From positions 1 to 50,349 of the forward strand of contig JADLBV010000096.1 in assembly GCA_020847545.1 (NCBI GenBank): a stretch of DNA of 50,349 nt. Direction: 5' to 3'. The DNA is from Phycisphaerales bacterium. Lineage in GTDB: Bacteria; Planctomycetota; Phycisphaerae; Tepidisphaerales; Tepidisphaeraceae. Within the stretch, counting starts at the first letter, position 1; each line of letters starts with the position of its first letter. A program made the position numbers and the translations under genes. The notes beneath the pieces are model-generated. The model saw only the letters and a program-made list of their open reading frames with translations, ran no database searches and was not told where the DNA came from. Shown here piece by piece: positions 17,511 through 37,817 of this stretch.

Positions 17511-18347
17511 TTACGCCACCGACTTTCGATATTTCATCCCTTCACCGCCGCCACGCCCCAGCAATTCGCTCAACAACCCCCTTAATCCTTCGGGCGTCAG
17601 CTTCCGGATCAATTGCCCGCGTTCGGCGATCGACACATCCCCCGTCTCCTCCGATACCACCAATACGACCGAATCGGACTCCTGGCTCATCCCCACCGCC
17701 GCCCGGTGCCGCGAACCCAATTCCCGCTCCAATTCCCCCGACTCGGCCAGCGGAAACTGCACCCCCGCATAGGCCACCTTCCCCTGCGACACCACCACCC
17801 CCAGATCATGCAACGGCGAATTGGGCCAGAAGATCGTCTCCAAAATCTCGGCCGTCAGGTCCGCGTTGACGCGCGTGCCGTTTTCCGCGATCCCACCCAA
17901 CCCGACATCCCGCTCGATGGCGACCAGCGCCCCGATCTTTCGGCGCGACAGAAAACTGGCCGCCTCCACCAGCGCATCGATCTCGTCGCTGATCTCGTTG
18001 GACCAACCCCGAAAGAGCCTCGTCTCGCCGATCCGCATCAACCCGCGGCGCAGTTCCGGCTGAAACACCACGATGGAGGCGAAAAACGCGAAATAAAGAA
18101 ACTTCTGATATAAAAACGCCACCCGCTCCAGCCCCCATTTGGCCGCCACCAAAGCCACCAGCAGATAAAGCGTGATTAAAACAAACGCCACCCCGCGCAA
18201 CATGCGCGCCCCGCGCGTGCCGCGCAGGAAACTGACCACCCAATAGATCACCAATCCGATCAGGAACAGTTCGATGGCCACCCGCCACCAGCCGTAACTG
18301 ACGACCGACCGGAAAAAATTGCCGAAATTAAAGATATCATCAGACAA
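17511..18347 (-). CDS. cdaA: Membrane diadenylate cyclase CdaA (DisA_N domain)
   Basis: 278 residues. Three N-terminal membrane helices (about 20-40, 50-70, 78-95) are followed by the DisA_N/DAC domain (about 110-270), which makes c-di-AMP from two ATP. The RHR motif is present (residues 213-215, SRHRAAVGMSQ). The DGA motif, normally LHDGAV, reads LHDLGV (Asp181-Leu-Gly). The essential Asp is kept, but the Gly-Ala pair is changed to Leu-Gly. This may be lineage-specific or reduce activity. It is followed by cdaR, proA and miaB on the same strand, an arrangement that fits c-di-AMP's known role in osmotic control, because proline is a compatible solute (inference). Confidence 0.9.
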   Translation of the reverse strand: MSDDIFNFGNFFRSVVSYGWWRVAIELFLIGLVIYWVVSFLRGTRGARMLRGVAFVLITLYLLVALVAAKWGLERVAFLYQKFLYFAFFASIVVFQPELRRGLMRIGETRLFRGWSNEISDEIDALVEAASFLSRRKIGALVAIERDVGLGGIAENGTRVNADLTAEILETIFWPNSPLHDLGVVVSQGKVAYAGVQFPLAESGELERELGSRHRAAVGMSQESDSVVLVVSEETGDVSIAERGQLIRKLTPEGLRGLLSELLGRGGGEGMKYRKSVA

Positions 18348-22960: not shown

Positions 22961-24463
22961 TTACGCCGCGTCAAGCAGCATTCCACGTCGGCCGCCCCAC
23001 CGCAATTTTCGATACGACTGAACGGTCACACTGCCGCTTTGCAGCAACGGCTGGAGCAATTCACCCCCACGATCGGCCTGTTCAACCAGTAATCGCAACT
23101 GGGGATGCTGATGGGCATCAATGGCCAGTTGGGGCATCGCCATGGCGATCAGTGAACGGTTTTCGATCAGCCAGCGATAGGCTTCACCGATGTGCCGCAA
23201 ATCCGCCAAACCTTGCGATGCAACCGCCAGTAATGTGACGGCATGATCCCGCCCCACCGCCAACTTGGCCTGCGGGCAATTGGGGACACTGAGCGGGCAT
23301 TGCACCCATTCCGCGCCGCTGTGCTGTAAATAGGCCGACAGTATGTTGTTTTCCGAATCATCGGCGGGCAATTCGATGACATCGCTATCCCCAGCCATTT
23401 TGAGTTTTGGGGCAGGGGCCGAAACAGGCTGTACCAATGCAATCGAATCCGTTTGTACGGGTGTCGGTTTAGTCGCCGGGGCCGTCGGGGCAATCGGAAC
23501 GACCACCTCGGCCAGCATTTGCGGCACGGCCGGGGCCTTGTGCATGGTGGGTTCGGGGTGATGAACTGCGGGTTCGGGCGATTTTTCGCGCGGGTTGCTT
23601 TTGGCCTTGGACAGAAAACCGGCAACGGCTTGCCATTGTGGACCGGCCGCCATTTGCGCCTTGTCGCGTGTCGGCCGCCAAACCAGCACGGTATGCTCAC
23701 AGACATCCGGCGCGGATCGAACCACTTGTTCCGATTCAACCGTCCAGTTCATGAACTGTCGGCAAACGCTGGTCAACTTGCGGCTGACCCGACCCGCCTC
23801 CTGTTCATCAACGGCATCCAAAATCACCAGCGACAAGGCGGGGTGATGCAATTCGGCCAGCCCCTTGAGCGTGCGATAGCTGGATACGATCCCATCGTGA
23901 TCGCATGTGGTCAACAACGACCAATGATCCACATCCCGCAACAGGGCGCGGGCTTCGGGGATGCGCGGATTGGGCAACAACAGCAGCCACTGATCCACAT
24001 CCCAGTTTAATTCATGGAGCGATTCGGCCATCTGGCGCGGCTCGACGCTCGAATCGGCGGTTGATCCCTCACCATCGGTCTGGACACCGCGGTCAAAACA
24101 CATCAACCGAAACTCAGAGGCATCCACCTCGATCAGGCCAACGCGGGCACCCGAAGCGGCCATGTGACGGGCGACTTCCAGCGCACGCTCGAACTGACGC
24201 CCATTGAGATGAGCGCCGATCAACGCCGTCACCGGGGCGATTTTGTTTCGCGGATCGGGAGCGGTTTCATTGCCGTAAACCTGTGCGAATTCCTCCGGCG
24301 ACAGGTCGATGCTGACATCGGGCCGTGGGGGAGGCGGTGTGCGTTGCGGCCGCGATGTACCGTTGGTTTGACGATCCCGCACGCTGCTGAGAAACAGGTG
24401 GCTGATCTCGCTGAGACTCCGTTTTGGCTTGGGATCATCCGGCATGGCGGTTTCACTTTCCAA
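22961..24463 (-). CDS. Degenerate ParA/MinD-like protein lacking a P-loop
   Basis: 500 residues. After a Pro/Arg-rich N-terminus (about 1-65), residues 75-270 follow the ParA/MinD pattern: VTALIGAHLNGRQFERALEV where the P-loop strand should be, GARVGLIEVDAS (DxD-like strand), VDQWLLLLPNPRIPEARALL (switch II region) and WSLLTTCDHDGIVSSYRTLKGLAE. There is no GKT Walker A, so ATP hydrolysis is unlikely. A Pro/Ala-rich linker (about 290-375) leads to an unrecognised C-terminal domain. It starts 18 nt after the ParA-CBM48 gene, so it may be its partner or regulator. The ParA-like reading is my inference from pattern. Confidence 0.7.
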   Translation of the reverse strand: MESETAMPDDPKPKRSLSEISHLFLSSVRDRQTNGTSRPQRTPPPPRPDVSIDLSPEEFAQVYGNETAPDPRNKIAPVTALIGAHLNGRQFERALEVARHMAASGARVGLIEVDASEFRLMCFDRGVQTDGEGSTADSSVEPRQMAESLHELNWDVDQWLLLLPNPRIPEARALLRDVDHWSLLTTCDHDGIVSSYRTLKGLAELHHPALSLVILDAVDEQEAGRVSRKLTSVCRQFMNWTVESEQVVRSAPDVCEHTVLVWRPTRDKAQMAAGPQWQAVAGFLSKAKSNPREKSPEPAVHHPEPTMHKAPAVPQMLAEVVVPIAPTAPATKPTPVQTDSIALVQPVSAPAPKLKMAGDSDVIELPADDSENNILSAYLQHSGAEWVQCPLSVPNCPQAKLAVGRDHAVTLLAVASQGLADLRHIGEAYRWLIENRSLIAMAMPQLAIDAHQHPQLRLLVEQADRGGELLQPLLQSGSVTVQSYRKLRWGGRRGMLLDAA

Positions 24464-24481: not shown

Positions 24482-25792
24482 TTAATCGACCTCAACGATG
24501 TTGTTCAATTCGCCAAACTGATTGGCTTCGACATAACTGTTGTGCGGATCGGTCATCCATTGGCCGTCCACGATGAACCGGTAGCGATATCGCCCCGGCT
24601 GCAGCGGCAGGCTCATAAACCATTCACCGGGACTGCCGTTGGTCCGCATCGGGGTGGATACCGACGACCAGTTGTTGAAATCACCGGCGATCAGGACGTT
24701 TTTGGCCTCCTCAAATCGCGCGGAGAAGACAACTTCCGCCCCAACCCGTTTGACGCCGTAAAATGCGTCGATTTTTTCCCGTGTACTCCGGGCGGCCGAC
24801 TTTGCTGCCGGTGCGGGAGCTTCGGTCTGCTCTTCTGATTCGGCGAATCGTCCGCCGATCTTCTCTCCGATTTTCTCCTGGACGACGACCGGCTCCGCCG
24901 GCGCGGTTGTGGTGACGGTATTTCGACCAAACTGGAAATTGGTCATTTGGGCCAGTTGCTTGGCGCGTTGCACCAGTTCGGCCGGCCGCGAGAGTTTCTC
25001 GGCTGGCGCCGGCTCAATGTCGATGGGACGATCCCCCATCAACTCACGGGCCAGATTCACAAAGTCCTTGTACCCCCGGCTCCCCGGATCGTACTCGGTG
25101 ATCGGCTGGCCAAAACTGGCGGCCTCCTTGAGCTTGGTATTGAAATTGACCGTGCTTTCCATCAGGTATTCGCGGAACTTGCTCCGCAGTTCCGACAAAA
25201 CCTCGCGGGCCAGCTTGGTGCGCGTGTCATAAAGTGTCGGCAGCACGCGGATGAGAATCTCCTTGTCGCAGCGGTCGCGCATCTCCTCAAGGGTTTCCAT
25301 CATCTTGGTCAACCCGTGCAGGCTGAAAAATCCGGTCTCCACCGGAACCAGACATTCATCGCACGCGCGCAGGGCGTTGAAGGTCAATAGCCCAACGCTG
25401 GGCGGGCAGTCGATGATCGCCCAGTCGTAGTTGCCGCTGACTTTTGCCAGCGCATCGCGCAGTCGATCCTCCCGGCCCGGCCGACCGGCGAATACCTGTT
25501 CAAACGCCGCCAGGCGAATATTGGAGGGGGCCAGATCAAAATTACTGGCGATCTGCCAGACAATCTCGTTGATGCGCGCCGTGGAGCCATCCCGCTCTTC
25601 AAGCAGGGTGTCGTAAATGGTTCGTTCAATCTGATCTTCAGGGACCGCCAGGCCTACGCCGCAATGGCCTTGAGGATCCATGTCCACCAGCAACGCTCTT
25701 TGCCCCAGACGTGCCAGGCAGGCGGCCAGATTGATGCTGGTCGTCGTTTTCCCACAACCACCCTTCTGGTTGATAATGGCGATGGTTCGCAT
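24482..25792 (-). CDS. ParA-family ATPase fused to a C-terminal CBM48/AMPK-beta-type glycogen-binding domain
   Basis: 436 residues. Residues 1-265 are a full ParA ATPase: deviant Walker A NQKGGCGKTT (Lys10 and Lys15), VDMDPQG, and IIDCPPSVGLLT. A charged linker (about 270-345) carries VVVQEKIGEKIGG. Residues 346-436 form a carbohydrate-binding module: VLIAGDFNNW (Trp375), RYRYRFIVDGQWMTDP (Trp412) and GELNNIVEV (Asn430-431). These are the residues that contact glycogen in AMPK-beta. The gene is followed at 18 nt by a P-loop-less ParA-like gene; no parB and no glycogen enzyme is adjacent. ParA proteins position DNA or protein cargo on the nucleoid, so this one may position glycogen (inference). 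Confidence 0.92.
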   Translation of the reverse strand: MRTIAIINQKGGCGKTTTSINLAACLARLGQRALLVDMDPQGHCGVGLAVPEDQIERTIYDTLLEERDGSTARINEIVWQIASNFDLAPSNIRLAAFEQVFAGRPGREDRLRDALAKVSGNYDWAIIDCPPSVGLLTFNALRACDECLVPVETGFFSLHGLTKMMETLEEMRDRCDKEILIRVLPTLYDTRTKLAREVLSELRSKFREYLMESTVNFNTKLKEAASFGQPITEYDPGSRGYKDFVNLARELMGDRPIDIEPAPAEKLSRPAELVQRAKQLAQMTNFQFGRNTVTTTAPAEPVVVQEKIGEKIGGRFAESEEQTEAPAPAAKSAARSTREKIDAFYGVKRVGAEVVFSARFEEAKNVLIAGDFNNWSSVSTPMRTNGSPGEWFMSLPLQPGRYRYRFIVDGQWMTDPHNSYVEANQFGELNNIVEVD

Positions 25793-25873: not shown

Positions 25874-26042
25874 TAGGCGATTCATCGGTGAGGTGATGCG
25901 AAAAACTTTAGCATTATGGGACAAAATATCGCGATAGAAATGCTGATAACGCATATTTAATAATTTTTGCTGATTTTGTTGTTGACTGCTGGATTCAATA
26001 TCGGTAAATTCCTTATATGTGGGTTGGGCAGCTTGTGCCGGG

Positions 26043-26072
26043 ATGTTTATAAACATTCGGCAACTGGTTGCC
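26043..26072. promoter_or_regulatory. Two adjacent palindromes upstream of the fibro-slime gene
   Basis: A perfect 14-bp palindrome ATGTTTATAAACAT (26043-26056) is followed 2 nt later by GGCAAC-TG-GTTGCC (26059-26072). They sit about 120-150 nt ahead of the slime-protein start, within a 400-bp AT-rich divergent region, and are good operator candidates. Confidence 0.45.
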
Positions 26073-26189
26073 ACAGGTCTTTTGTTTTTAGTTATTTGTC
26101 CGAGGCGATGTCATCATAAGTGCTTATGGCACGGTGCTTTAGGCATTATATCGAAACATATGCGCGGACATGCGGAAAGGAGCTGGAAC

Positions 26190-27281
26190 ATGCGTCGTAA
26201 GGTTTTATTTGCCATGACGGGTGCCATGCTCGCCACCGGCTTTGGGGCTTCTTGGGTGAGCGCACAAGCCGATCAGCGAACGGTGACGGGTACGGTTCGC
26301 GATTTTAAGGGGGCTTTTGATATATCGGGCAATCCCAATCCCGGTGGGCATCCTGATTTCGAGCAGTTTGATTTTCGGCCGGATGGATTTGGCCAACCCA
26401 CCATCACCCCCTCGGGTGTCCCTCCATTTTACACACTTGGCTTTAACAGCCGATTCCCCAAGGAATATTTCCCTCCCACGATCAATCCGAGCGATATCAA
26501 CATCGCATATCCGGATATGGACCTTGCCACCGGCGGCAATGATCAGACCAACAAAGTTGAACTGGGTATCGTGAATTCAACGCTGGGGTCGGATGGCAAA
26601 CCCGTCTATCAAGGCCAATCCAATGCGGGTTTTTATAAATCCACCCACGATGCGGCCAGCTTCAACCAGTGGTACAACGACACCTCTGGCGTCAATCTGT
26701 CCCATGATATTGTATTGAGTCTGGTGGATGGCGACGCCGATGGTGTTTACACGTTTTCCGATCATAACTTTTTCCCGCTGGACGATCCGGCCGTCATTGC
26801 CGGCGACATCGGCAGCGCCGATGCCGGTGGATTCACCGGATTCGGAAATGAAGGTCGCGATCACAATTTCAGCTTCACCCTCGAACTGCATGACAAGCCG
26901 GTCTACAACGGCGGCGAAACATTCCGGTTTGTCGGCGATGACGATGTCTTTCTGTTCATCAACGGGCAGTTGGTGATGGACCTTGGCGGGGTTCACAATC
27001 CATTGCCTGAAGGCGGCCCGTTTGTGGTGAATCTGGACGACCTTGGCCTGACCAAGGGCCAGGAGTTTGATTTTGATTTCTTCTATGCCGAGCGCAATAC
27101 GAGCAATTCCACCATCCTGATGGAAACCTCGATTTTGCTGGGCGAAGGTGGTGGCACTCCCCCGCCGCCTCCACCCCCGCCACCACCGGCCGCCATTCCG
27201 TTGCCCGCAGCGGCGTGGATGGCGCTGAGCCTCATGGGTGGTATGGGCGCATGGTCCAGATTGCGACGTCGTCAGTCGTAA
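26190..27281 (+). CDS. Fibro-slime domain surface protein with PEP-CTERM-like sorting tail
   Basis: 363 residues from the ATG at 26190, preceded by GGAAAGGAGC; an in-frame extension to 26019 is rejected. Signal peptide about 1-28 (VLFAMTGAMLATGFGASWVSAQA). The fibro-slime domain occupies about 80-320, with FSDHNFFPLDD, FRFVGDDDVFLFINGQLVMD, LGGVHN and FDFFYAERNTSNST. A poly-Pro run then leads into IPLPAAAWMALSLMGGMGAW and RLRRRQS, a VPLPA-CTERM-like exosortase signal (motif, helix, basic end). It is likely exported and anchored or released by exosortase, possibly binding extracellular polysaccharide. The downstream polysaccharide genes fit this. Confidence 0.88.
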   Translation: MRRKVLFAMTGAMLATGFGASWVSAQADQRTVTGTVRDFKGAFDISGNPNPGGHPDFEQFDFRPDGFGQPTITPSGVPPFYTLGFNSRFPKEYFPPTINPSDINIAYPDMDLATGGNDQTNKVELGIVNSTLGSDGKPVYQGQSNAGFYKSTHDAASFNQWYNDTSGVNLSHDIVLSLVDGDADGVYTFSDHNFFPLDDPAVIAGDIGSADAGGFTGFGNEGRDHNFSFTLELHDKPVYNGGETFRFVGDDDVFLFINGQLVMDLGGVHNPLPEGGPFVVNLDDLGLTKGQEFDFDFFYAERNTSNSTILMETSILLGEGGGTPPPPPPPPPPAAIPLPAAAWMALSLMGGMGAWSRLRRRQS

Positions 27282-27356: not shown

Positions 27357-28049
27357 TCAGGCCAGTCCATAGTCCGGGACCAGCGCCCCGCTGGTCAGCG
27401 CATTGTCTGGGCTGGCCAGAAAGGCGATGGTCCGGGCCACCTGTTCAACCGTGGGCCAGCGGGAATAATCCGCATCGGACATGGAGGTGCGATTGGCGGG
27501 CGTGTCCATGATCGAAGGCAAAACGGCATTGATCCAAATCTGATCGTCGCGCGTCTCTTTGGCCAACGATTGCGTTAGCGCGGCGACTGCGGACTTTGCC
27601 GTGGCGTATGCGATCATGCCGGAGGTGGGCGCAACGGCCGCGCGGGCGGCGACATTGACGATCCGTCCACCCTGCCCGGTCTTTCGCATCGCGACAATCG
27701 CTTCGCGGCAGCAAAGAAAACAGCTTAAAGTGTTCAACTCAAACTGGCGTCGAAAATCATCGGCGCGGGTTTGCTCAATCGGCGCGGCGCTGAAACCGCC
27801 GATGGTATGAATCGAGGCCCACATCGGACCCACTTTGGCGTAAAAATCAGTGACGGCCTTCTCATCCGTGCAATCGACCGGATGAAGATGCAGGTTTTTG
27901 TGGGGATTGGGTTGATTTTTCCCGCTGCCCAAATGCCCTGTGGCATGACAGATCGCGCCACGCTCAAGCAGCAATTTGACCACGGCCGAGCCTAAGGCGC
28001 CGGTTCCGCCCGTCACCACCACCACCCGGCCGGCGTAGTCCTGGTCCAT
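27357..28049 (-). CDS. Short-chain dehydrogenase/reductase (SDR)
   Basis: 230 residues from the ATG at 28049; a TTG five codons earlier is rejected because AAAAGG lies 8 nt before the ATG. Classical SDR: cofactor loop TGGTGALG, NVAARAAVAP in the catalytic-Ser region, and YATAK with the catalytic Tyr and Lys. The usual catalytic Ser falls where this protein has an Ala/Arg-rich segment, so activity needs care in assignment. Substrate unknown. It follows ugd on the same strand after an 88-nt gap that includes a REP-like element, so it may belong to the polysaccharide unit or be independent. Confidence 0.85.
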   Translation of the reverse strand: MDQDYAGRVVVVTGGTGALGSAVVKLLLERGAICHATGHLGSGKNQPNPHKNLHLHPVDCTDEKAVTDFYAKVGPMWASIHTIGGFSAAPIEQTRADDFRRQFELNTLSCFLCCREAIVAMRKTGQGGRIVNVAARAAVAPTSGMIAYATAKSAVAALTQSLAKETRDDQIWINAVLPSIMDTPANRTSMSDADYSRWPTVEQVARTIAFLASPDNALTSGALVPDYGLA

Positions 28050-28077
28050 GGAGAGCCTTTTCAATGGGGAAATCGAT

Positions 28078-28102
28078 GGTCCGCACGGGTGCGAACCCTA
28101 CA
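28078..28102. repeat. GTAG-headed REP-like palindrome (third family)
   Basis: On the minus strand it reads TGTAGGG then TTCGCACCCGTGCGGACC: GTAG followed by an 8-bp stem GGTTCGCA/TGCGGACC (one wobble) with loop CCCG. It has the same header as the other REPs but a different core. It sits between ugd and the SDR gene. Confidence 0.5.
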
Positions 28103-28137
28103 AAATCACACCCATATATTCACACCCGGCAACAGGT

Positions 28138-29490
28138 TTACACCCGGGTTTTAAGCCGCAGGGTGTTTTCGACGGCCGGACGGCCCATGGGGTAATACTG
28201 GAATCCCGTTTCGCGCATCACGTCGCGGTGCAGGCAGTTTCGGCCATCAAAAATAATCGGCTGGTTCATCGTCGCCGCGATTTTTCGGAACGGCAGTGTC
28301 GAATATTGAGGCCAGTCAGTCAGCAAGGCCACCGCATCCGCACCAGCCGCGGCGCTGACCGGATCGGGGAACCACTCCACCTGCTCCTTAAAGAGCTGTT
28401 TCATGTTCTCCATCGCCTTGGGATCGGTCGCCCGGACATGCGCACCTTTTTCCAACAGGTAACGGATCACATCAATCGCGGCCGACTCGCGGATGTCATC
28501 GGTGTCGGCCTTGAAGGCCAATCCCCAGACCGCGATGGTCGCCCCTTCGATCGGCCGGCCCAGCTTTTCAACAATTTTTTGCACGAACCGCTGCTTTTGA
28601 TTCTTATTGACGGTTTGAATGGCCTCGACAAACAGGTTTTCATGGCCCACCGCCTTGCTGATGTGCTCCAGCGCGGCCACATCCTTTGGAAAACAGGAGC
28701 CGCCATATCCACACCCGGCCCGCAAAAACGCCGGCCCGATGCGAAAATCGGTGCCGATCCCCTTTCGGATGTCCTCGATGTCCGCGCCATACGCCTCGCA
28801 CAGAATCGTCATCTCGTTCATGAACGAGATTCGCGCGGCCAGCATCGCGTTGGCGGCGTATTTGGTCAGCTCGGCCGATTCCCAGGCCATCGTCATGAAA
28901 TGCTCTTCGCGCTTGATGATCGGGTCGTACAACCTGCGCATCATGCGAAACGCCTCGGGCGATTCGCCGCCGATGACAATGCGGTCGGGTTCAAGAAAAT
29001 CCTTGACGGCCGACCCTTCGCGCAGGAACTCCGGGTTGGAGACCACCTGCACATAGGCGTTGGTCTGCTGTTTAAGAAAATTGTACAACTTGCGATTGGT
29101 GCCGGCCGGCACGGTCGATTTGACGACAATCGTCACCATGTATTCGTTGTTCAACGCCACCAAGGCGTCGCAGACTTCCTTGCCTGCACCTTCCAGAAAG
29201 CTCATGTCCACAGTGCCATCGTCCTTGGGGGGTGTGCCGACCGCCAGGTAGACGACTTCGGCTTCCTTGAGGGCGGATTTGACGTTGCCGGTAAACTGCA
29301 ACTGACCCGAGGCGTAATGCTCCTGCATCAATTCCTGCAACCCCGGCTCAAAGACGGGGCAATGCCCATCCTGTAGCATCTTGAGCTTGCGCGGGTCTTT
29401 TTCGACGCCCCGCACCGTATGCCCAAGGCTCGCCAGGCAGGTGCCGGTGACCAGACCCACATAACCACAACCAATGACAGTCACATCCAT
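28138..29490 (-). CDS. ugd: UDP-glucose 6-dehydrogenase
   Basis: 450 residues, usual family length. It oxidises UDP-glucose to UDP-glucuronate with two NAD. N-terminal Rossmann fold (VIGCGYVGLVTGTCLASLGH); active-site Cys in GYGGSCFPKD; Lys/Asn-type catalytic helix region ELTKYAANAMLAARISFMNE; C-terminal nucleotide-sugar domain with VWGLAFKADTDDIRES. UDP-glucuronate feeds acidic polysaccharides and is the substrate of decarboxylase/epimerase enzymes such as the one encoded 1.5 kb upstream. Together with the wecA-like gene it forms an exopolysaccharide precursor set. The GDP-mannose dehydrogenase branch is a less likely alternative. Confidence 0.92.
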   Translation of the reverse strand: MDVTVIGCGYVGLVTGTCLASLGHTVRGVEKDPRKLKMLQDGHCPVFEPGLQELMQEHYASGQLQFTGNVKSALKEAEVVYLAVGTPPKDDGTVDMSFLEGAGKEVCDALVALNNEYMVTIVVKSTVPAGTNRKLYNFLKQQTNAYVQVVSNPEFLREGSAVKDFLEPDRIVIGGESPEAFRMMRRLYDPIIKREEHFMTMAWESAELTKYAANAMLAARISFMNEMTILCEAYGADIEDIRKGIGTDFRIGPAFLRAGCGYGGSCFPKDVAALEHISKAVGHENLFVEAIQTVNKNQKQRFVQKIVEKLGRPIEGATIAVWGLAFKADTDDIRESAAIDVIRYLLEKGAHVRATDPKAMENMKQLFKEQVEWFPDPVSAAAGADAVALLTDWPQYSTLPFRKIAATMNQPIIFDGRNCLHRDVMRETGFQYYPMGRPAVENTLRLKTRV

Positions 29491-29539
29491 AATTAAACCT
29501 CAAACCCTTCTTAAATAGCTGAAAATTTATTTAACACGA

Positions 29540-30883
29540 TCACCCGATTTTCATCGGCGATGAAGCGGGTGGAGTAGTCCAGGTGGATTCTTCCGTAGTT
29601 ACAACCGTTGTTTCCTCTTTGATCTCCAACACCGAGCCTTGCTCAATGGAGACGGATGTGGAGACGACTTCGCTGGTGCTTAAATCCCGCCGGGCAACCA
29701 CCCGTGGCTTTTCATGCACCATCCCCATTTTATAGGCCGCGACGATGATCGAACCAAAGATCACCAGATAGATCGCCCCCACATATCGGGTACGCATGTA
29801 AACGATCGATGCGCCCAGCAACGCGAAGAAGATCGCCAATCCGTAGCTGATCAATACCGTCTGTTTGACGCTGAATCCACGCGCCACAAGCTGATGATGA
29901 ATATGGTGCTTGTCCGCGCTGAAAATCGGCCGGCCGTTCACATATCGACGGGTAAAGGCCAACAAGGTGTCCAGCACGGGCAGTGCGAACATGACGGTCG
30001 CCGCCATGAACCACTTGGGATGCTGACCCTGGCCCATGAGAATGATCATCACCGCGCAACAAAACCCCAAAAACATGCTGCCGGTGTCCCCCATGAAGAT
30101 GGAGGCGGGATTGAAATTATAAGGCACAAACCCCAGCACCGCCCCCAACAACGCCAGTCCCAACACCACCCGCAATCCATCCCAGTTGGTGTTCAACCCG
30201 GACCCGGCCATAGCCAGATGAATCGCCAGAAACAGCAACCCGGCCGAAATCACGCCGGTCACCCCGCCGCACAGGCCATCCAGACCATCCATGAGATTCG
30301 TGGCGTTGCAACAGAACACGACGATGAAAACAACCAGCAATCCGCTGATGGAAATGATAAACCAATCGGGAATCATCGGCAGGCCAAACCGGTTGTTGAG
30401 CAAATGACTCACCGGAACCAGCACCGGCTCCACCAGCCGGGTGCCGATGCCATCCGCCAGCAAAATCAACGCGGCCAGCACCTGCCCCATGATCTTCACC
30501 CACGGCTTGAGCCGCAGAATATCATCCCACAACCCCAGCAAAACGATGCAGCACGCCCCCACCACAATGCTGAATTTGATCACCAGATGGGTGGTCGTCC
30601 ACCCCAGCGGCACTTGATGCAATCGAAGAAACTGGCTGACCGCCAAACCGCAAATCCATCCCAGAAAGACCGCCACGCCACCCAGATAAGCCACCGGCAC
30701 GGCGTGCATTTTGCGAATGCGGTCCGGCTCGTCGATGATCCCGTAATACATCGCCACCGACCGCATGATCGGCGTGAAAATAAACGACACCACAAACGCC
30801 GCGTAAAAAACGTAGATGTAAGGGGACAACACCTCATCCGCGGTGAATGGCCGGCCAATTTGTCCCAGCAAAACGCTGATCAT
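29540..30883 (-). CDS. WecA/TagO-like undecaprenyl-phosphate sugar-1-phosphate transferase
   Basis: 447 residues with about eleven membrane helices. It has family motifs of the MraY/WecA/TagO group: HAVPVAYLGGVAVFLGW, GLWDD, the catalytic NATNLMDGLDGLCGGV, and FNPASIFMGDTGSMFLGF, plus the cytoplasmic HHIHHQL loop with metal and substrate ligands. The enzyme moves GlcNAc-1-P or a related sugar-P onto the lipid carrier and so starts glycan assembly. The C-terminal 60 residues form an acidic Ser/Thr-rich cytoplasmic tail not seen in standard WecA. It lies 49 nt upstream of ugd on the same strand. Confidence 0.9.
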   Translation of the reverse strand: MISVLLGQIGRPFTADEVLSPYIYVFYAAFVVSFIFTPIMRSVAMYYGIIDEPDRIRKMHAVPVAYLGGVAVFLGWICGLAVSQFLRLHQVPLGWTTTHLVIKFSIVVGACCIVLLGLWDDILRLKPWVKIMGQVLAALILLADGIGTRLVEPVLVPVSHLLNNRFGLPMIPDWFIISISGLLVVFIVVFCCNATNLMDGLDGLCGGVTGVISAGLLFLAIHLAMAGSGLNTNWDGLRVVLGLALLGAVLGFVPYNFNPASIFMGDTGSMFLGFCCAVMIILMGQGQHPKWFMAATVMFALPVLDTLLAFTRRYVNGRPIFSADKHHIHHQLVARGFSVKQTVLISYGLAIFFALLGASIVYMRTRYVGAIYLVIFGSIIVAAYKMGMVHEKPRVVARRDLSTSEVVSTSVSIEQGSVLEIKEETTVVTTEESTWTTPPASSPMKIG

Positions 30884-31023
30884 GCTTCAATATCCCAAGG
30901 ACACGCCGGCACCCGCCACCGTGGATGGAGTCATCCTTGTTAGAATTTTCGGCGCATTTTGCATCGCTCTCAAGTCAACCACGTCAATTGGTCCAACGTC
31001 CGATAAAAAGGGACCGGCGGTCA

Positions 31024-31995
31024 TTACGCCATTGCACGCTGTTCGGCAATCACCGACTGGATGATCTGATCCAGATTCAGCTTCGGCCTGAAACCTATTA
31101 CGCCTCGCAGACGATCCAGTTTTGGTACCCGCCGGGGAAGATCATCAAAGGCATGACCATACGCCTGTTCATAACTCAGATGGTGGATCTGACTGGCGGA
31201 TTTACAGTGCCGTATAACGCGCTCGGCCAGTTGGTTGATCGAAACTTCCTCATCCGACCCCAGATTATACACCTGTCCCAAGGCCTTTGGCTCCCCCATT
31301 AATTGAACCAGCGCCTCAGAGACATCAGAAACATGACAAAAACAACGGGTCTGGTTCCCGTCGCCATAGACCTCCAACGGCTTTCCCGCCAATGCGGCCG
31401 ACACGAATCGGGGCAATACCATCCCGTACATGCCAACCTGCCGCGGGCCAACGGTGTTGAACAACCTCACCAGCACCACCGGCAAGCCATATTGTCGATG
31501 ATACGCCAGCCCCAGAAATTCATCGATCCCCTTGGAATACGCATAACACCAGCGGCTGGAATGGGTTGCCCCCATCACCACATCGTCCAATTCATCAAAC
31601 GGAACCCGCGCCCCTTTGCCATAAACTTCGGAGGAACTGGTAATCAGTGTCGGCCGACCGAACCGATGGGCGGCCTCCAAAACCACTTCGGTCCCATGAA
31701 TCGTCGTCCGAATCGTCCGCACCGGCTGATCCAGAATCAACTGCACCCCCACCGCGCTGGCCAGGTGATAAACCACGTCGGCCGAGTGAACCAGCGTGTT
31801 GACCGTGGCAACATGCTCAACCGAATCGCGGACAAACTGGAATTTCGGATTCCTGCGGATATGTTCGATATTTTCCACCCGACCGGTGGATAAGTCATCC
31901 AGCACGGTCACGCGGTCCCCCCGATCCAGCAGCCGCTCGGCCAGATGCGAGCCAATAAACCCCGCGCCGCCGGTAATTAAGGCATGAATCGACAT
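31024..31995 (-). CDS. NAD-dependent nucleotide-sugar epimerase/decarboxylase
   Basis: 323 residues of the extended SDR family. TGGAGFIGSHL cofactor loop, VLDDLSTG, catalytic SSSEVYG (Ser/Thr) and YAYSKGIDE (YxxxK), and RLFNTVGPRQVGMYGMVLPRF. The last motif and the overall pattern fit UDP-glucuronate decarboxylase or UDP-glucose 4-epimerase types. With ugd close by, UDP-glucuronate processing is the favoured role (inference). It is separated by 140 nt from the wecA-like gene on the same strand; no terminator is visible in the gap, so they may share a transcript. Confidence 0.87.
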   Translation of the reverse strand: MSIHALITGGAGFIGSHLAERLLDRGDRVTVLDDLSTGRVENIEHIRRNPKFQFVRDSVEHVATVNTLVHSADVVYHLASAVGVQLILDQPVRTIRTTIHGTEVVLEAAHRFGRPTLITSSSEVYGKGARVPFDELDDVVMGATHSSRWCYAYSKGIDEFLGLAYHRQYGLPVVLVRLFNTVGPRQVGMYGMVLPRFVSAALAGKPLEVYGDGNQTRCFCHVSDVSEALVQLMGEPKALGQVYNLGSDEEVSINQLAERVIRHCKSASQIHHLSYEQAYGHAFDDLPRRVPKLDRLRGVIGFRPKLNLDQIIQSVIAEQRAMA

Positions 31996-32055
31996 CCCAA
32001 AAGAGATTATATCCCAAATTGACCCCGATCAAGCGGTTTGTGGTATCGTCTGGCC

Positions 32056-32865
32056 ATGGAATATGAACTGGGAATCATCGGCGCGGGGAACATGGCGGAG
32101 GCGATTGTGCGGGGGGTTATCCAGGGCGGAGTCATCGCTCCGGCGAAAATGGTGGCGGCGGATGTCTCTCCTCAACGACGCGAATTGTTTGCCAATCAGC
32201 TTGGCATCAAAGCCGTGGAAAAACCGGCCGACGCGGCACGCGGGGCGAAAATCGTGCTGTTGAGTGTCAAACCGTATCAGATGGGGGAGGTATTGGGGGA
32301 AATTCGCCCAAGTTTACGCCCCGATTCGCTGGTGGTGTCGATCGCGGCGGGGATTGGGTCCGGCGCGATTGAGAAACATCTGGGAAATGGATCATGGCGG
32401 GTGGTGCGTTCGATGCCCAATACCCCCATGCTGGTGGGAGAGGGGATGGTGGCCATCGCGGCCGGCAAGTGGGCGACACCGGAGGATATGGCGACGGCCC
32501 GGCGGCTATTTGAGACGGCCGCCAGTGTCGTGGAGGTCAAAGAGGAACAGATGGACGCGGTGACGGCGGTCAGCGGGTCAGGCCCGGCCTATTTTTATTA
32601 TCTGGTGGAACAGATGACCGAGGCGGGGGTGCGGCTGGGATTGTCGACAAAGGATGCGGAATTGATGGCTCGAAAAACGGCATTGGGGGCGGCCAAACTG
32701 CTGGTGAATTCCACCGACTCGCCACGCGAACTTCGCCGCAAAGTCACCACGCCAGGTGGAACAACCGCCGCCGCGATTGATTACATGGAATCACACCAGA
32801 TGGGTCAGATCGTCATGGATGCGCTGTCGGCGGCGGCACAACGCAGCCGGGAGATGGGGAAATAA
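32056..32865 (+). CDS. proC: Pyrroline-5-carboxylate reductase
   Basis: 269 residues from the ATG at 32056; a TTG six codons earlier is dismissed. It carries out the last step of proline synthesis. N-terminal Rossmann fold (LGIIGAGNMAEAIVRGVI), VVRSMPNTPMLVGEGM, and the C-terminal dimer domain with the ProC signature (AVSGSGPAYFYYLVEQM, then KVTTPGGTTAAAIDYME). Convergent with purN, whose 3-prime end overlaps it by 53 nt. proA is 16 kb away in this window, so the pathway genes are scattered. Confidence 0.95.
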   Translation: MEYELGIIGAGNMAEAIVRGVIQGGVIAPAKMVAADVSPQRRELFANQLGIKAVEKPADAARGAKIVLLSVKPYQMGEVLGEIRPSLRPDSLVVSIAAGIGSGAIEKHLGNGSWRVVRSMPNTPMLVGEGMVAIAAGKWATPEDMATARRLFETAASVVEVKEEQMDAVTAVSGSGPAYFYYLVEQMTEAGVRLGLSTKDAELMARKTALGAAKLLVNSTDSPRELRRKVTTPGGTTAAAIDYMESHQMGQIVMDALSAAAQRSREMGK

Positions 32866-33481
32866 CCCGCACCCGTCGGCCGACAATTTGCAGTCGACGC
32901 TGGGCAAAAAGCCCGATCGCCTCCGGATAGGCGATGGTTTCCTGTTCAAAAACGCGATGGGCGAGGGTGTCCGGGGTGTCATCATCCAGAACTTCGCAGG
33001 TACGCTGGAGGATGACCGGGCCGCTGTCATATTCGGCGTCCACGAAATGAACCGTGCAACCGCTGACTTTGCACCCGTAATCGAGCACAGCCTGATGGAC
33101 GCGCCGGCCGTACATCCCTTTGCCGCCGAAACTGGGGAGCAAGGCGGGGTGAATGTTCATCACCCGGCCGGCATATTTTTCAGGAACCTGCAACAGACAC
33201 AACCACCCCGCCAGGCAGACCAGATCGACATTGACATCATCGCAGAGGGTAAAGATTTGTTTGCCATGCTCCTCGGCGGTGGCGAAATCGCGGCGGTCGG
33301 CGATGAAATTCATCAGTTTGGCATCCGCGGCGCGCTGAAGACCCACCAAACCGGGACGGGAGCCGATGACTACGGCAATTTGCGCGTTCAATGTGCCGGC
33401 GGCGATCCGGTCGATCAGGTTTTGCAGCGTTCGGCCGGTTCCGCTGAGCAATACCGCGAGTTTGAGGGGGGAATCGCTCAT
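32813..33481 (-). CDS. purN: Phosphoribosylglycinamide formyltransferase
   Basis: 222 residues from the ATG at 33481, which overlaps the ileS stop as ATGA, so translation is probably coupled. PurN transfers a formyl group from 10-formyl-THF to GAR in purine synthesis. Motifs: LLSGTGRTLQNLID, then LVCLAGWLCLLQVP, the catalytic NIHPALLPSFGGKGMYG (Asn and His), and VHFVDAEYDSGPVI (Asp). The 14-residue upstream extension lies inside ileS and is rejected. The C-terminal tail (SPSPGCVVPPPTAHP) extends over the 3-prime end of proC. Confidence 0.94.
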   Translation of the reverse strand: MSDSPLKLAVLLSGTGRTLQNLIDRIAAGTLNAQIAVVIGSRPGLVGLQRAADAKLMNFIADRRDFATAEEHGKQIFTLCDDVNVDLVCLAGWLCLLQVPEKYAGRVMNIHPALLPSFGGKGMYGRRVHQAVLDYGCKVSGCTVHFVDAEYDSGPVILQRTCEVLDDDTPDTLAHRVFEQETIAYPEAIGLFAQRRLQIVGRRVRVISPSPGCVVPPPTAHP

Positions 33482-36357
33482 GGGTTCAATTTGCGCAACG
33501 CCGCGGCGTCGCGGAGACACAGATCGGGGTGTTGCTCATCACGGCCAACATCCGGCCGGCGCTTCCAGCTACGGGCGCAGGCGGCGTAGTCATTTCGTCG
33601 ATCCACAATTTTGACCGTGACGGCCGGTGCGCTGTCGGCCGATTCGGCAAAGGTGTGGTGGCCGGCGCCGACAAGGTCTTCCAGATCGACGCCATAGGCT
33701 TGCAGACGACGACGAAGGTCATCGCTGTCCACCTGATAGATCACCTCGGCATCGAGGGCCTTGTTCAGACCGACTTCCTTTTTCAGGCCATCAAGTTGGG
33801 AGAGCGCCTGATCACGCAGCTCCATCAGCAGTTTCCATTCCTCGCGTTGTTCATCGGTGGGTGACTGATCCGATGCCTTTGGCAGCAACGCCAGGTGAAT
33901 GCTGGAAAGTCCGGCCTCATCGGCGGGCTTGCTGGGAATCTGTTCCCACGCCTCATCGGCCGTGAAAACGATCATCGGAGCCAGCAGCTTGGTCAGAACC
34001 ATCACCATCCGGTGCATGACCGTCTGGCATCGCCGGCGAATCGCCGAGTCAGGCAGTTCGCAATAGAGCCGGTCCTTCATCGCGTTACCATAAATGGCGC
34101 TGATCTGGACGGCACAGAAATCGTGCAGCAATCGAAACGCGCGATGGAGCTGATAAGACTCATAGGCGCTGGTCACTTCGCCAATCAGCTCATCAAGCTG
34201 GTTCCACGCCCAACCATCAAGACTGCGAGGGGGGATGGTTTGCGTGTGCTTTGCCGAATCAAAATCGTACAGGTTGGAGAGGAGATACCGCAGCGTATTG
34301 CGGATTTTGCGATACTTGTCGCCAAATTCCTGCAACATCTTCGGGCTGACGGGAATATCACCCTGATAATCGACGCTGCAACACCACAACCGCAGTACAT
34401 CGGCCCCGTGGCGGTTGATCTCCTGCGTGGCGGTGACGTACTCCTTGTCGCTCTTGGAGACCTTGGTTCCATCCGGCTTGACGACAAAACCGTGGGTGAG
34501 GACTTGCCTGAACGGAGGCACACCCGTCGCCCCCAGCGATGGCAACATCGACAACTGGAACCAGCCTCGGTGTTGATCGGAACCTTCCAGGTACAGGTCG
34601 GCCGGGAATTGCAGTTGCGGACGCGACTGCAATACGGCGTGCCAGGAGCTTCCCGATTCAAACCAGACGTCGAAAATGTCCTTCTCCTTGCGCAGCTGAT
34701 CGGGAGAAAATCCGGCGGGATATTCAAAATCACTCCCCAGCAGTTCGGCCGGTGAGTCAGTAAACCACGCATCCGAACCTTTTTCGGCAAACCGTTTGGC
34801 CACCGCGCGGACGCTGGCGGGAGTCACCAGTGCTTCTCCATGCTCATTATAAAAAACCGGGATGGGCAATCCCCACGCCCGCTGCCGCGAGATGCACCAA
34901 TCCGGCCGGGAATCGATCATGCCGGTCATGCGCGATTGCCCCCATTTGGGGATGAATTCCACCTCGTGGGCCACGCTCGCCAAGGCGCGCTGCCGCAATG
35001 ATCGCGGGCGGGCGCCGATCTCACCCATCACGCCATATTCGCGGTCGATGGCGATGAACCATTGCTCGGTGGCGCGAAAGATCGTGGGGGTTTTGCTTCG
35101 CCAGTCGTGAGGATAGCTATGGCTGATGACCCCTTGGTCAAACAGCACATCCAGTTCGACCAGCTTGTTGATGATTAACGGGTTGGCATCCCAGACGCTC
35201 AACCCATGCAGCCATGATGGAACGGTCTGATCAAACCGGCCATTGTGCAACACCGGACAATAGACCGGTAATCGATTGAGAATGCCGGTGGCGTAGTCCT
35301 CCTCACCGTGGCCGGGGGCGGTGTGAACCAGCCCGGTGCCATCGGTGGTGGTGACGTAAGTGGCTTCCAGCAGCGGCCCCTGTCGGTCGATGAAGGGGTG
35401 CTGATAGGTGGCGCCGGCCGCGACAATCTCCCGGCCGGTGGTCGATTTGAGCACCTGAATATTGGTGATGCCGGGGCGATCCTCAAACACCTTTTTAACC
35501 AATTCGGTCGCGACCACGCCCAGGCGCGATCGTCCATTGCGGTCATAACGGACCAGCGAATATTGAACCTCCGGATGGACCGCGATGGCCAGATTGGCCG
35601 GCAATGTCCAGGGGGTGGTCGTCCAGACCAGAAAATCAATCGCCTCCCCATCGGCGTCAAACAGGAGATTCATCGCCTGCGGATTGGCGCTGCGGAACTC
35701 GACAAAGATGCTGGGGCCTTCAACGTCGCGATATTCCAACTCCGCATCGGCCAGCGCGGTCTGATTGGCGATGGACCAATGGACTGGTTTGAGCTGTTTA
35801 TAGACCAACCCCGCCTCGACAAAGCGTGCAAAGACCTCCAGCACGGCCGACTCATAGGCGGGTTTGAGGGTTAAATAGGGATTTGCCCAATCCCCAAAGA
35901 TGCCAAGCCGTTGAAACTGTTCATTTTGAACGCCGGCGAATTTTTCGGCATAGGCAAAGCAGAGTCGGCGGACTTCAACGGTGGACATCTGCCGCAATTT
36001 TGGGCCAAGGTCCTGCTGGATTTTGTGTTCGATGGGCAGGCCGTGGCAGTCCCAACCGGGGACATAGGGGGTTTGATGCCCCTGCATGGTGCGGAAGCGC
36101 AGGATGACATCCTTGAGGGTTTTGTTGATCAGGTGACCGATGTGAATGTCCCCATTGGCAAAGGGTGGGCCATCGTGAAGGATCCATTTTTTACCTTTGG
36201 ATCGGGCGCCCTGAATCTGGTCATAGAGCTTTTGCTCCTGCCAGCGTGCCAATCGCGGCGGTTCGTTTTGAACCAGCTTGGCTTCCATCGCAAATGGGGT
36301 TTGCGGGAGGTTGAGTGTGGTTTTGTAGTTCTTTTTGGCCGGGGTATCGGTGCTCAT
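33478..36357 (-). CDS. ileS: Isoleucyl-tRNA synthetase
   Basis: 959 residues, class I synthetase. HIGH motif in GDIHIGHLINKTLKD; KMSKS motif as KVSKS in PDGTKVSKSDKEY; the large editing (CP1) domain has TTTPWTLPANLAIAV and the GHGEEDY segment. The C-terminal zinc ribbon, normally CxxC...CxxC, reads C927-x2-S930 and C947-x2-D950, so two of four ligands are lost. It is in a unit with the MATE gene (31-nt gap upstream) and purN (4-nt overlap downstream). No T-box-like leader is visible. Confidence 0.97.
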   Translation of the reverse strand: MSTDTPAKKNYKTTLNLPQTPFAMEAKLVQNEPPRLARWQEQKLYDQIQGARSKGKKWILHDGPPFANGDIHIGHLINKTLKDVILRFRTMQGHQTPYVPGWDCHGLPIEHKIQQDLGPKLRQMSTVEVRRLCFAYAEKFAGVQNEQFQRLGIFGDWANPYLTLKPAYESAVLEVFARFVEAGLVYKQLKPVHWSIANQTALADAELEYRDVEGPSIFVEFRSANPQAMNLLFDADGEAIDFLVWTTTPWTLPANLAIAVHPEVQYSLVRYDRNGRSRLGVVATELVKKVFEDRPGITNIQVLKSTTGREIVAAGATYQHPFIDRQGPLLEATYVTTTDGTGLVHTAPGHGEEDYATGILNRLPVYCPVLHNGRFDQTVPSWLHGLSVWDANPLIINKLVELDVLFDQGVISHSYPHDWRSKTPTIFRATEQWFIAIDREYGVMGEIGARPRSLRQRALASVAHEVEFIPKWGQSRMTGMIDSRPDWCISRQRAWGLPIPVFYNEHGEALVTPASVRAVAKRFAEKGSDAWFTDSPAELLGSDFEYPAGFSPDQLRKEKDIFDVWFESGSSWHAVLQSRPQLQFPADLYLEGSDQHRGWFQLSMLPSLGATGVPPFRQVLTHGFVVKPDGTKVSKSDKEYVTATQEINRHGADVLRLWCCSVDYQGDIPVSPKMLQEFGDKYRKIRNTLRYLLSNLYDFDSAKHTQTIPPRSLDGWAWNQLDELIGEVTSAYESYQLHRAFRLLHDFCAVQISAIYGNAMKDRLYCELPDSAIRRRCQTVMHRMVMVLTKLLAPMIVFTADEAWEQIPSKPADEAGLSSIHLALLPKASDQSPTDEQREEWKLLMELRDQALSQLDGLKKEVGLNKALDAEVIYQVDSDDLRRRLQAYGVDLEDLVGAGHHTFAESADSAPAVTVKIVDRRNDYAACARSWKRRPDVGRDEQHPDLCLRDAAALRKLNP

Positions 36358-36389
36358 GAATCGACTCGTTGGGACCTGTCACAGCGGGA

Positions 36390-37817
36390 TCATTCCACCG
36401 GCAGGGGGACTTTCAAACCATCTACTTTATCGGATGCCGGATCATCCTCCAAACGGATCGACCGCCAGGCCCCGGAGCGGAAACGGGCAAAGACAAAGAT
36501 GCCCACGGTGATGCCATACGCCGTCGCCATGATCCATGGTCCGGCCACGCCCAATGCGGGCCAATAATGGGCAACCAACACCCCTCCGCCCACCGCGATT
36601 GTCCAGCAGAACAGTGCCGTCATCACGGCCGGGACAAACGTATCCCCAGCGCCGCGCAACGCGCCGATGTACAACAGGTACAGCGCGTCAAAAAACTGAT
36701 AAAAGGCCGCAAATATCAGCAAAACAGCGCCCATCCGCCGGACATCCGGTTCTTCGGTGAACATCCCCATCAGCCAATGTCGGCCGAGATAGAAAAACAA
36801 TCCGCAGCAGACCATGTATATCGCCGCCACCAGAAACCCCAGGTCCGCCCGTTGACGGGCCATGTCAGGCTCTCCCTTGCCGATATACCTCCCCACCAAC
36901 GCCGTGACGGCCGTCCCCAACCCGATGGCGGGCATGAAGCTGACCATCATGTAACGGAGCATGAATGTATTGGCGGCCATGGCGTGTGTGCCAAACGGGG
37001 CCATGACCCACATTGTGAACAAGGACCATGCAAGGACATCCGAAACCAGTTGCAATCCCGAAGGCAACCCCAGCCTCAACAGGACTTTCAGTTTCACCCA
37101 TTGCAATCGCCAGTCGGCAATGTGATAGGTATGAGTAATGCCCGGCCGGCTGACGAACCAGATCAACGTCATCAACTCAAATCCAACCCCGATCCCCTGC
37201 GCCCAGGCGGCCCCCACCACACCCATCGATGGCACGCCCGCATTTCCGAAGATCAGGATCCACGCCGACAATGCGTTGGCCGAGACCCCCACCACCGCTG
37301 AGGCCAGCACAAGCCCCGGCCGATTGACGGCCAATAGAAAATTCCCCAGCGTCGTGCCACCGAGTTTGAGAATCGCCAGGCCGATGCTGATCTGAAAATA
37401 GGCCGACTCCAGTTTGGCCAGTTGGGGTTCATGTCCCAATGAATGAAAAATGGCTTGTGAAAAGGGAAGAGCCGGCAGCACCAGCACCGCGAAAAACAGG
37501 CTGAACCAGACACCCTGCCAGAGATATTGGCCGCAGGCGCGGTATTCCTTGGCCCCATAATGCTGGCTGACCAGGGTGTTGATCAGAAAAAGCACCCCCA
37601 CACCAAAGCTGATGATGGCAAAGGAGATCATGCCGCTGTTGGCCGCGGCGGTCGGCTCGGTGACGGAACCATGAACATGGGCCAGCATCCAGGTGTCGAT
37701 GAACTGCATCACCGTGTAGGAGGCCATCTGCGCCACGGTTGGGCCGGCCAGCGCCAGCAGTTCCCAAATGGGCGATTTGGCGGCATTTTGCGACTGAATG
37801 GTTGATGACTGGTTCAT
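36390..37817 (-). CDS. MATE-family efflux transporter
   Basis: 475 residues with about twelve membrane helices arranged in two halves, typical of MATE antiporters that export organic cations using Na+ or H+. Family-like segments are WELLALAGPTVAQMASYTVMQFIDTWML in the first helix region, then NTLVSQHYGAKEYRACGQYLWQG and the second-half counterpart TAVTALVGRYIGKGEP. It lies 31 nt upstream of ileS on the same strand. Its mRNA leader carries a strong hairpin plus U-tract 20 nt before the start, which suggests attenuation or a riboswitch. Substrate unknown. Confidence 0.92.
   Translation of the reverse strand: MNQSSTIQSQNAAKSPIWELLALAGPTVAQMASYTVMQFIDTWMLAHVHGSVTEPTAAANSGMISFAIISFGVGVLFLINTLVSQHYGAKEYRACGQYLWQGVWFSLFFAVLVLPALPFSQAIFHSLGHEPQLAKLESAYFQISIGLAILKLGGTTLGNFLLAVNRPGLVLASAVVGVSANALSAWILIFGNAGVPSMGVVGAAWAQGIGVGFELMTLIWFVSRPGITHTYHIADWRLQWVKLKVLLRLGLPSGLQLVSDVLAWSLFTMWVMAPFGTHAMAANTFMLRYMMVSFMPAIGLGTAVTALVGRYIGKGEPDMARQRADLGFLVAAIYMVCCGLFFYLGRHWLMGMFTEEPDVRRMGAVLLIFAAFYQFFDALYLLYIGALRGAGDTFVPAVMTALFCWTIAVGGGVLVAHYWPALGVAGPWIMATAYGITVGIFVFARFRSGAWRSIRLEDDPASDKVDGLKVPLPVE

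Follow-up and report, generated by a model that had tools for sequence, protein, structure and literature searches.

Cargoes known to be positioned by ATPases of the ParA/MinD family include DNA, carboxysomes, chemoreceptors and division complexes. Which cargo an ATPase positions is set by its partner protein, which is often unidentified, leaving "orphan" ATPases (PMC10241942). In M. xanthus, ParB residues L11, L15, L18 and I19 bind a hydrophobic pocket at the edge of the ParA dimer, and R13, which is needed for stimulation of the ATPase, lies near ParA Y81, with E82, D110 and E117 (PMC12462528). In the carbohydrate-binding module (CBM48) of AMPK, Thr148 is central in the sugar pocket; the T148D substitution abolishes binding of cyclodextrin and glycogen, and T148A retains binding (PMC4416872). 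No paper on a fusion of ParA with CBM48 was found in the literature searched.

We analyzed such a fusion, encoded on the minus strand of a 50,349-nucleotide stretch of a Phycisphaerales MAG, hereafter the window. The gene and its elements are as follows.

24482–25792, minus strand: ParA–CBM48 fusion gene, 436 aa from an ATG start, stop codon included in the coordinates (open reading frame, Pfam, PDB, AlphaFold).
25028–25792, minus strand: ParA/Soj ATPase domain, residues 1–255 (Pfam AAA_31; VIA Z 37 to ParA/Soj structures).
25742–25771, minus strand: deviant Walker A motif NQKGGCGKTT, residues 8–17 (from sequence; K10, G11, G12, G14, K15 and T16 invariant in 67 homologues).
25613–25615, minus strand: Tyr60, equivalent to M. 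xanthus ParA Tyr81, the proposed receptor of the ParB-peptide Arg (8ray alignment, PMC12462528, co-variation).
24758–25027, minus strand: linker, residues 256–345, with a conserved helical segment at 269–288 and a disordered stretch at 292–331.
24485–24757, minus strand: CBM48/AMPK-beta-type module, residues 346–436 (PF16561, E = 6e-17; AMPK beta-2, E = 2.5e-12).
24668–24670, minus strand: Trp375, at the position of AMPK W100 (Trp in 67/67).
24557–24559, minus strand: Trp412, at the position of AMPK W133 (Trp in 67/67).
24509–24511, minus strand: Glu428, at the position of AMPK Thr148 (Glu or Asp in 58/67).

The Pfam profile AAA_31 matches residues 1–179 (E = 1.2e-51) and AMPK1_CBM (PF16561) matches residues 362–436 (E = 6.4e-17; 62 bits against a gathering score of 26.8), with a further match to CBM_48 (PF02922; E = 3.9e-8; 34 bits against a gathering score of 22.4). 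A phmmer search of the PDB with the whole protein returned ParA/Soj (E = 1.6e-55) and the AMPK beta-2 CBM (E = 4.7e-11); the C-terminal domain alone matched the latter with E = 2.5e-12. The initial annotation had described a complete ParA with a deviant Walker A motif and an AMPK-beta-type CBM48 that keeps Trp375, Trp412 and an NN motif, here placed at residues 430–431; all of this, the gene coordinates included, proved right. The AlphaFold model of the fusion has a pLDDT of 87, exceeding 90 over most of the length of both domains, the C-terminal one among them. The assignment of the CBM fold rests on sequence, because matches to the ParA domain take up the Foldseek and VIA lists of the fusion model. 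The fusion itself is neither a chance product nor an assembly artefact, since dozens of other loci share the same architecture.

The ParA domain is 41–42% identical to M. xanthus ParA and superimposes on Soj/ParA structures with Z scores of 34–38 and an rmsd of 1.6–1.8 Å over 240–250 residues (VIA). All three ATPase motifs, the deviant Walker A (KGGxGKT) as well as Walker A' and B, are present and invariant or nearly so in the 67 homologues, with K10, G12, K15, T16, D37, D39, Q41 and D128 invariant, and the basic residues R191 (60/67) and K220 (59/67) are conserved. We infer from these residues a nucleoid-type ParA that looks active and would bind the nucleoid with ATP.

A search for the fusion across Planctomycetota, a line of inquiry already suggested by the initial annotation, found it in many Phycisphaerae families, in most genomes alongside a second, canonical ParA (phylum and class samples), and the gene context was compared in 81 loci. 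The fusion is mostly missing from several families of the class sample (f104, f108 and f113). The nearest named relative (L037) is 76% identical. Among the matches listed, the fusion also occurs in Desulfobacteraceae (L110), Omnitrophota (L112 and L115), Rokuibacteriota (L113), Auribacterota (L114) and Eisenbacteria (L116), that is, in at least five phyla besides Planctomycetota, which rules out an origin confined to Planctomycetes. Given this occurrence in many families and in other phyla, ParA–CBM48 is evidently an old and widespread architecture and no local accident. Two Phycisphaerae-like copies on contigs labelled Actinomycetes (L094) and Kuenenia (L084) are probably misbinned; the former groups with a Phycisphaerae copy. 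The CBM has been lost or is degenerate in some orthologues (L021, L027, L028 and L029), and in L028 and L029 the orthologous ParA is about 325 aa long and ends ahead of the CBM48, making these natural CBM-less variants. Stand-alone CBM48 proteins of about 100–140 aa, close to the fusion module, are common in the class (for example G473:C6:4916-5194 and G460:C13:159601-159891).

When all genes within 10 kb of the 81 fusion copies were clustered, a single conserved neighbor emerged, the co-oriented gene immediately downstream, which usually lies less than 200 bp from the fusion. A six-frame HMM search found this partner immediately behind the fusion in the window and in 34 of the 80 other loci, or 35/81; the majority of loci have no partner beside the fusion. 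The adjacent partner is present as well in the Desulfobacteraceae, Rokuibacteriota, Auribacterota and Eisenbacteria loci; for the first of these, and for L099 and L100, adjacency was confirmed by the six-frame search. In the window its elements are as follows.

22961–24445, minus strand: partner gene, 494 aa from ATG, or 500 aa from an upstream TTG at 24463 (HMM).
24386–24430, minus strand: N-terminal ParA-binding-like peptide KPKRSLSEISHLFLS, residues 6–20.
23591–24244, minus strand: middle domain, residues 68–285, FlhG/FleN-like with the P-loop lost (VIA, Foldseek).
22964–23380, minus strand: C-terminal domain, residues 356–494 (pLDDT mostly above 90).

The AlphaFold model of the partner (pLDDT 81) has a disordered N-terminal tail with a short conserved motif, followed by the middle and C-terminal domains. 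The middle domain matches FlhG with a Z score of 13.4 over 176 residues at 4.1 Å (Foldseek E = 3.6e-9); FlhG/FleN chains occupy Z scores from 13.4 to 10.8, and the next group follows at 9.6. The Eisenbacteria partner matches FleN by sequence as well (7e-9). The window protein has a degenerate P-loop and the Eisenbacteria one a semi-intact P-loop (GEKIQGKT), whereas the true FlhG proteins of relatives retain SGKGGVGKT/S. A sequence-profile search of the PDB with the C-terminal domain gave only noise, and in the structural fold search with the partner the matches were taken up by the middle domain; the order of the secondary-structure elements of the C-terminal domain is at most suggestive of a PD-(D/E)XK-like fold. 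The window partner has no Pfam match, and hence none to a ParB/Srx CTPase or HTH domain. The parts of the partner are arranged differently in two outgroups: in Auribacterota the C-terminal domain is apparently a separate gene at position +2 (214 aa), and in Rokuibacteriota the N-terminal motif is joined directly to the C-terminal domain. The searched genomes that lack an adjacent partner yielded none elsewhere: in most, the search reached just a true FlhG, its P-loop intact, and in four there was no match, so those lineages may have another activator or none. The initial annotation had supposed that the CBM48 itself recruits the cargo and that no parB partner is needed, which is contradicted in about 40% of loci by this co-oriented gene with its ParA-binding-like peptide.

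Nearly all partners carry the pattern [LIVY]xx[ILV][SAT]xx[FYL]L[STG] close to the N-terminus. The motif is found in 31 of 79 genes at position +1 and in about 0–5% at other positions. The peptides of the Desulfobacteraceae, Rokuibacteriota and Eisenbacteria partners (LGRGLDEISDIFLS, LGRGLEDVSHLFLS and LGRGLAEVSHIFLS, respectively) follow LGRGLxEISxxFLS or LGRGLxxVSHxFLS, the LGRGL form of the ParB-type L-x-R-x-L-x-x-[LI] peptide. The ParB of the window's own MAG starts MSKVQRPRLGRGLSSLIS and contains RLGRGLSSLIS. In the window partner, the corresponding KRSLSEIS keeps the Arg and the later aliphatic residues, with the first Leu replaced by Pro. Both matches at position −1 belong to Omnitrophota, which have no FlhG-like partner; the gene concerned encodes a protein with one TM segment that starts MTRDEIYDHLAQVYLGK, bears the same motif and has a weak CIA30-like match.

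In the 8ray alignment, M. xanthus ParA Y81, E82 and E117 correspond to Y60, D61 and E98 of the fusion. Where the partner has Arg at the position of ParB R13, the fusion has Y60 in 11 of 12 cases, compared with 3 of 20 where the Arg is missing (Fisher p = 3e-5, uncorrected for kinship). Mapped on the tree, the pair shows three co-losses and three events in the opposite sense, in which L039 and the L056/L094 clade have retained the Tyr but not the Arg and the Desulfobacteraceae copy pairs Arg with a residue other than Tyr; the co-variation in this alignment rests on few independent events. That the N-terminus of the partner is a ParB-type activator of the fusion ParA is supported, not proven: gene order, motif and co-variation are the grounds on which we infer the interaction.

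With moderate confidence, we propose a two-gene positioning module of the ParA type, in which the partner would serve as activator and cargo adaptor and the CBM48 as tether or sensor. The ATP-bound ParA domain would dimerize and bind the nucleoid non-specifically, as its conserved active site and basic residues suggest. Next, in the manner of the N-terminal peptides known from ParB and other ParA/MinD partners, the ParB-like N-terminus of the partner would dock on the edge of the ParA dimer and trigger hydrolysis of ATP and release. The FlhG-like pseudo-ATPase and C-terminal domains of the partner would bind cargo or an apparatus. The flexibly linked CBM48 may tie ParA to an alpha-glucan-like polymer; alternatively, it may sense a glucan or another ligand and tune the cycle, as in AMPK. 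In this way some non-chromosomal cargo would be regularly placed or partitioned; glycogen is one candidate.

We aligned the sugar site of the CBM48 with that of AMPK beta, using the AMPK numbering of the sugar-contact residues. Across the 67 aligned fusions both contact Trp residues are invariant, Arg or Lys occupies the K126 position in 65, Asn the N150 position in 63 and Phe or Tyr the L146 position in 64. These counts indicate that a ligand site in the CBM48 is clearly under selection. The site agrees with that of AMPK beta in its Trp, Arg/Lys and Asn contacts and departs from it at the Thr148 position, which is acidic in 58/67, Glu in the window protein, and Gly in the Desulfobacteraceae, Rokuibacteriota, Auribacterota and Eisenbacteria outgroups. 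Alpha-glucan binding by the Phycisphaerae proteins cannot be assumed from the alignment, because T148D at this very position abolishes binding in AMPK.

The CBM48 may be an AMPK-like regulatory sensor or a protein-binding E-set domain whose ligand is not the cargo, the acid fitting another ligand such as an amino-sugar polymer or a protein loop. We hold this to be a tentative but quite possible alternative: the conserved acid in the pocket, the loss or degeneration of the CBM in the four orthologues named above and the AMPK precedent (PMC4416872) all favor it, and the retention of both contact Trp residues without exception in 67 sequences, which suggests sugar stacking, speaks against it.

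The initial annotation had gone further and named glycogen as the cargo, the CBM48 binding it directly and ParA spreading the granules over the nucleoid for inheritance. We consider this unlikely, although the conserved Trp, Arg/Lys and Asn contacts are compatible with it. The gene content of the class, surveyed in 120 genomes (GlgA by TIGR02095 at E ≤ 1e-60, GlgB by TIGR01515 at E ≤ 1e-80, GT5 by PF08323), is divided on the matter: GT35 phosphorylase is present in 108/120 and GH57 enzymes in most fusion genomes tested, some of them beside a GT5-like synthase, whereas GlgA is present in only 3/120, GlgB in 18/120 and GT5 in 34/120. None of GlgA, GlgB, GT5 and GT35 was detected in the window's genome at these thresholds. 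A complete lack of alpha-glucan enzymes there is ruled out by a GH13 that looks secreted and carries a CBM48 at its N-terminus and by two GH57 proteins of 413 and 563 aa, the longer of which has a sequence like that of a branching enzyme. Two genomes, G445 (100% complete) and G348 (97%), carry the fusion and gave no match to GT5, GlgB, GT35 or GH57, and glycogen as cargo, possible in many genomes, is for that reason not required by gene content. Nor was a conserved glycogen gene found among the clustered genes within 10 kb of the 81 copies. Together with the acidic Thr148 position, these results leave glycogen as cargo unproven, while ParA-type positioning as such, claimed alongside it, retains the backing of an active-looking, paralogous ParA and appears likely. 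Separately, a GT5-like synthase gene adjoins the GH57 gene in G287 (L154), G400 (L152) and G406 (L153), an alpha-glucan gene pair other than GlgA/GlgB in Phycisphaerae.

The fusion might instead be the chromosomal ParA of the window organism, paired with an orphan parB. The earlier statement that no parB is present is true of the window, where none adjoins the fusion in a ParABS arrangement; it does not extend to the genome, which has a parB on contig 34 (L034:8601-9551, minus strand; G000:C34), nor does it take in the adjacent gene with its ParB-type peptide. The contig 34 gene has a nuoD-like gene on one side and no adjacent parA, and a second Soj-type ParA was not found in the window's MAG, as this reading would predict. 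We nevertheless judge it very unlikely: most of the family, the same-genus genome G403 included, has a separate ParA about 40% identical to that of the fusion, and with the MAG at 95.6% completeness and split into 162 contigs, this second parA may simply have escaped assembly. The second ParA in relatives argues against the fusion as sole chromosomal ParA. Since most relatives have such a separate ParA, the fusion ParA is, as far as the comparison goes, a paralogue of the chromosomal Soj, which makes the positioning of another cargo plausible.

To the right of the fusion, the window encodes a divergently transcribed PA14-domain protein with a PEP-CTERM-like C-terminus (26019–27281, plus strand) and, at 27357–37817, an SDR, a UDP-glucose dehydrogenase, a WecA-like transferase, an epimerase and a MatE flippase, a set typical of surface-polysaccharide synthesis; a membrane diadenylate cyclase with a CdaA-like DAC domain is encoded at 17511–18347 (minus strand). 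That the fusion belongs to these right-hand genes (27.4–37.8 kb) and acts in polysaccharide secretion as BcsQ does, for which a Pfam CBP_BcsQ match (E = 9e-14) could also be cited, is the least probable reading and hardly credible, as the exopolysaccharide neighborhood is not kept in the 80 other loci, which speaks against the link, the ParA domain scores Z 34–38 to Soj against Z 28 to BcsQ, and NCBIfam BcsQ (TIGR03371) gives 83 bits against a cut-off of 157.85.

The favored reading, a ParA-type positioning module of two genes, has as its core a conserved ATPase–partner pair that is recognizable from sequence in several phyla; the ATPase of the pair contains a carbohydrate-binding module. A bolder form of it would posit a widespread and hitherto undescribed class of ParA positioning system, anchored to a polysaccharide through the ATPase, in which the ParB-like activating peptide has moved to an FlhG-derived pseudo-ATPase (in other phyla to a membrane protein) and the nucleoid serves to space out a polysaccharide body inside the cell; we regard this as doubtful. 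A polysaccharide body as cargo would make the module, judging by the literature searched, the first known case of a ParA system that serves a storage or a structural glycan. The occurrence of a ParB-type peptide on unrelated proteins suggests a route to the partners of orphan ParAs.

Compared with known systems, the fusion shares the fold and all ATPase motifs of ParABS Soj proteins (M. xanthus 8ray, H. pylori 6iub/8jmj, T. thermophilus 1wcv) and keeps the ParB-peptide receptor residues Tyr60, Asp61 and Glu98. It differs from them in its C-terminal CBM48, in a neighbor that is not ParB and in the separate Soj of its relatives. The CBM48 belongs to the same domain family as that of AMPK beta (1z0n, 2f15, 4y0g) and has the Trp, Lys/Arg and Asn contacts in common with it, but has Glu/Asp for Thr148 and Phe/Tyr for Leu146 and is attached to an ATPase. 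The partner shares with FlhG/FleN the fold of its middle domain and a segment that precedes the ATPase fold at the N-terminus; in contrast to FlhG/FleN, it has no P-loop, a ParB-like peptide replaces the FlhF-binding motif, and a C-terminal domain is added. As in positioning systems of the McdAB/PomXYZ type, a ParA ATPase is combined with a partner bearing a short N-terminal activating peptide, yet the domains of the partner differ, and the carbohydrate module sits here on the ATPase.
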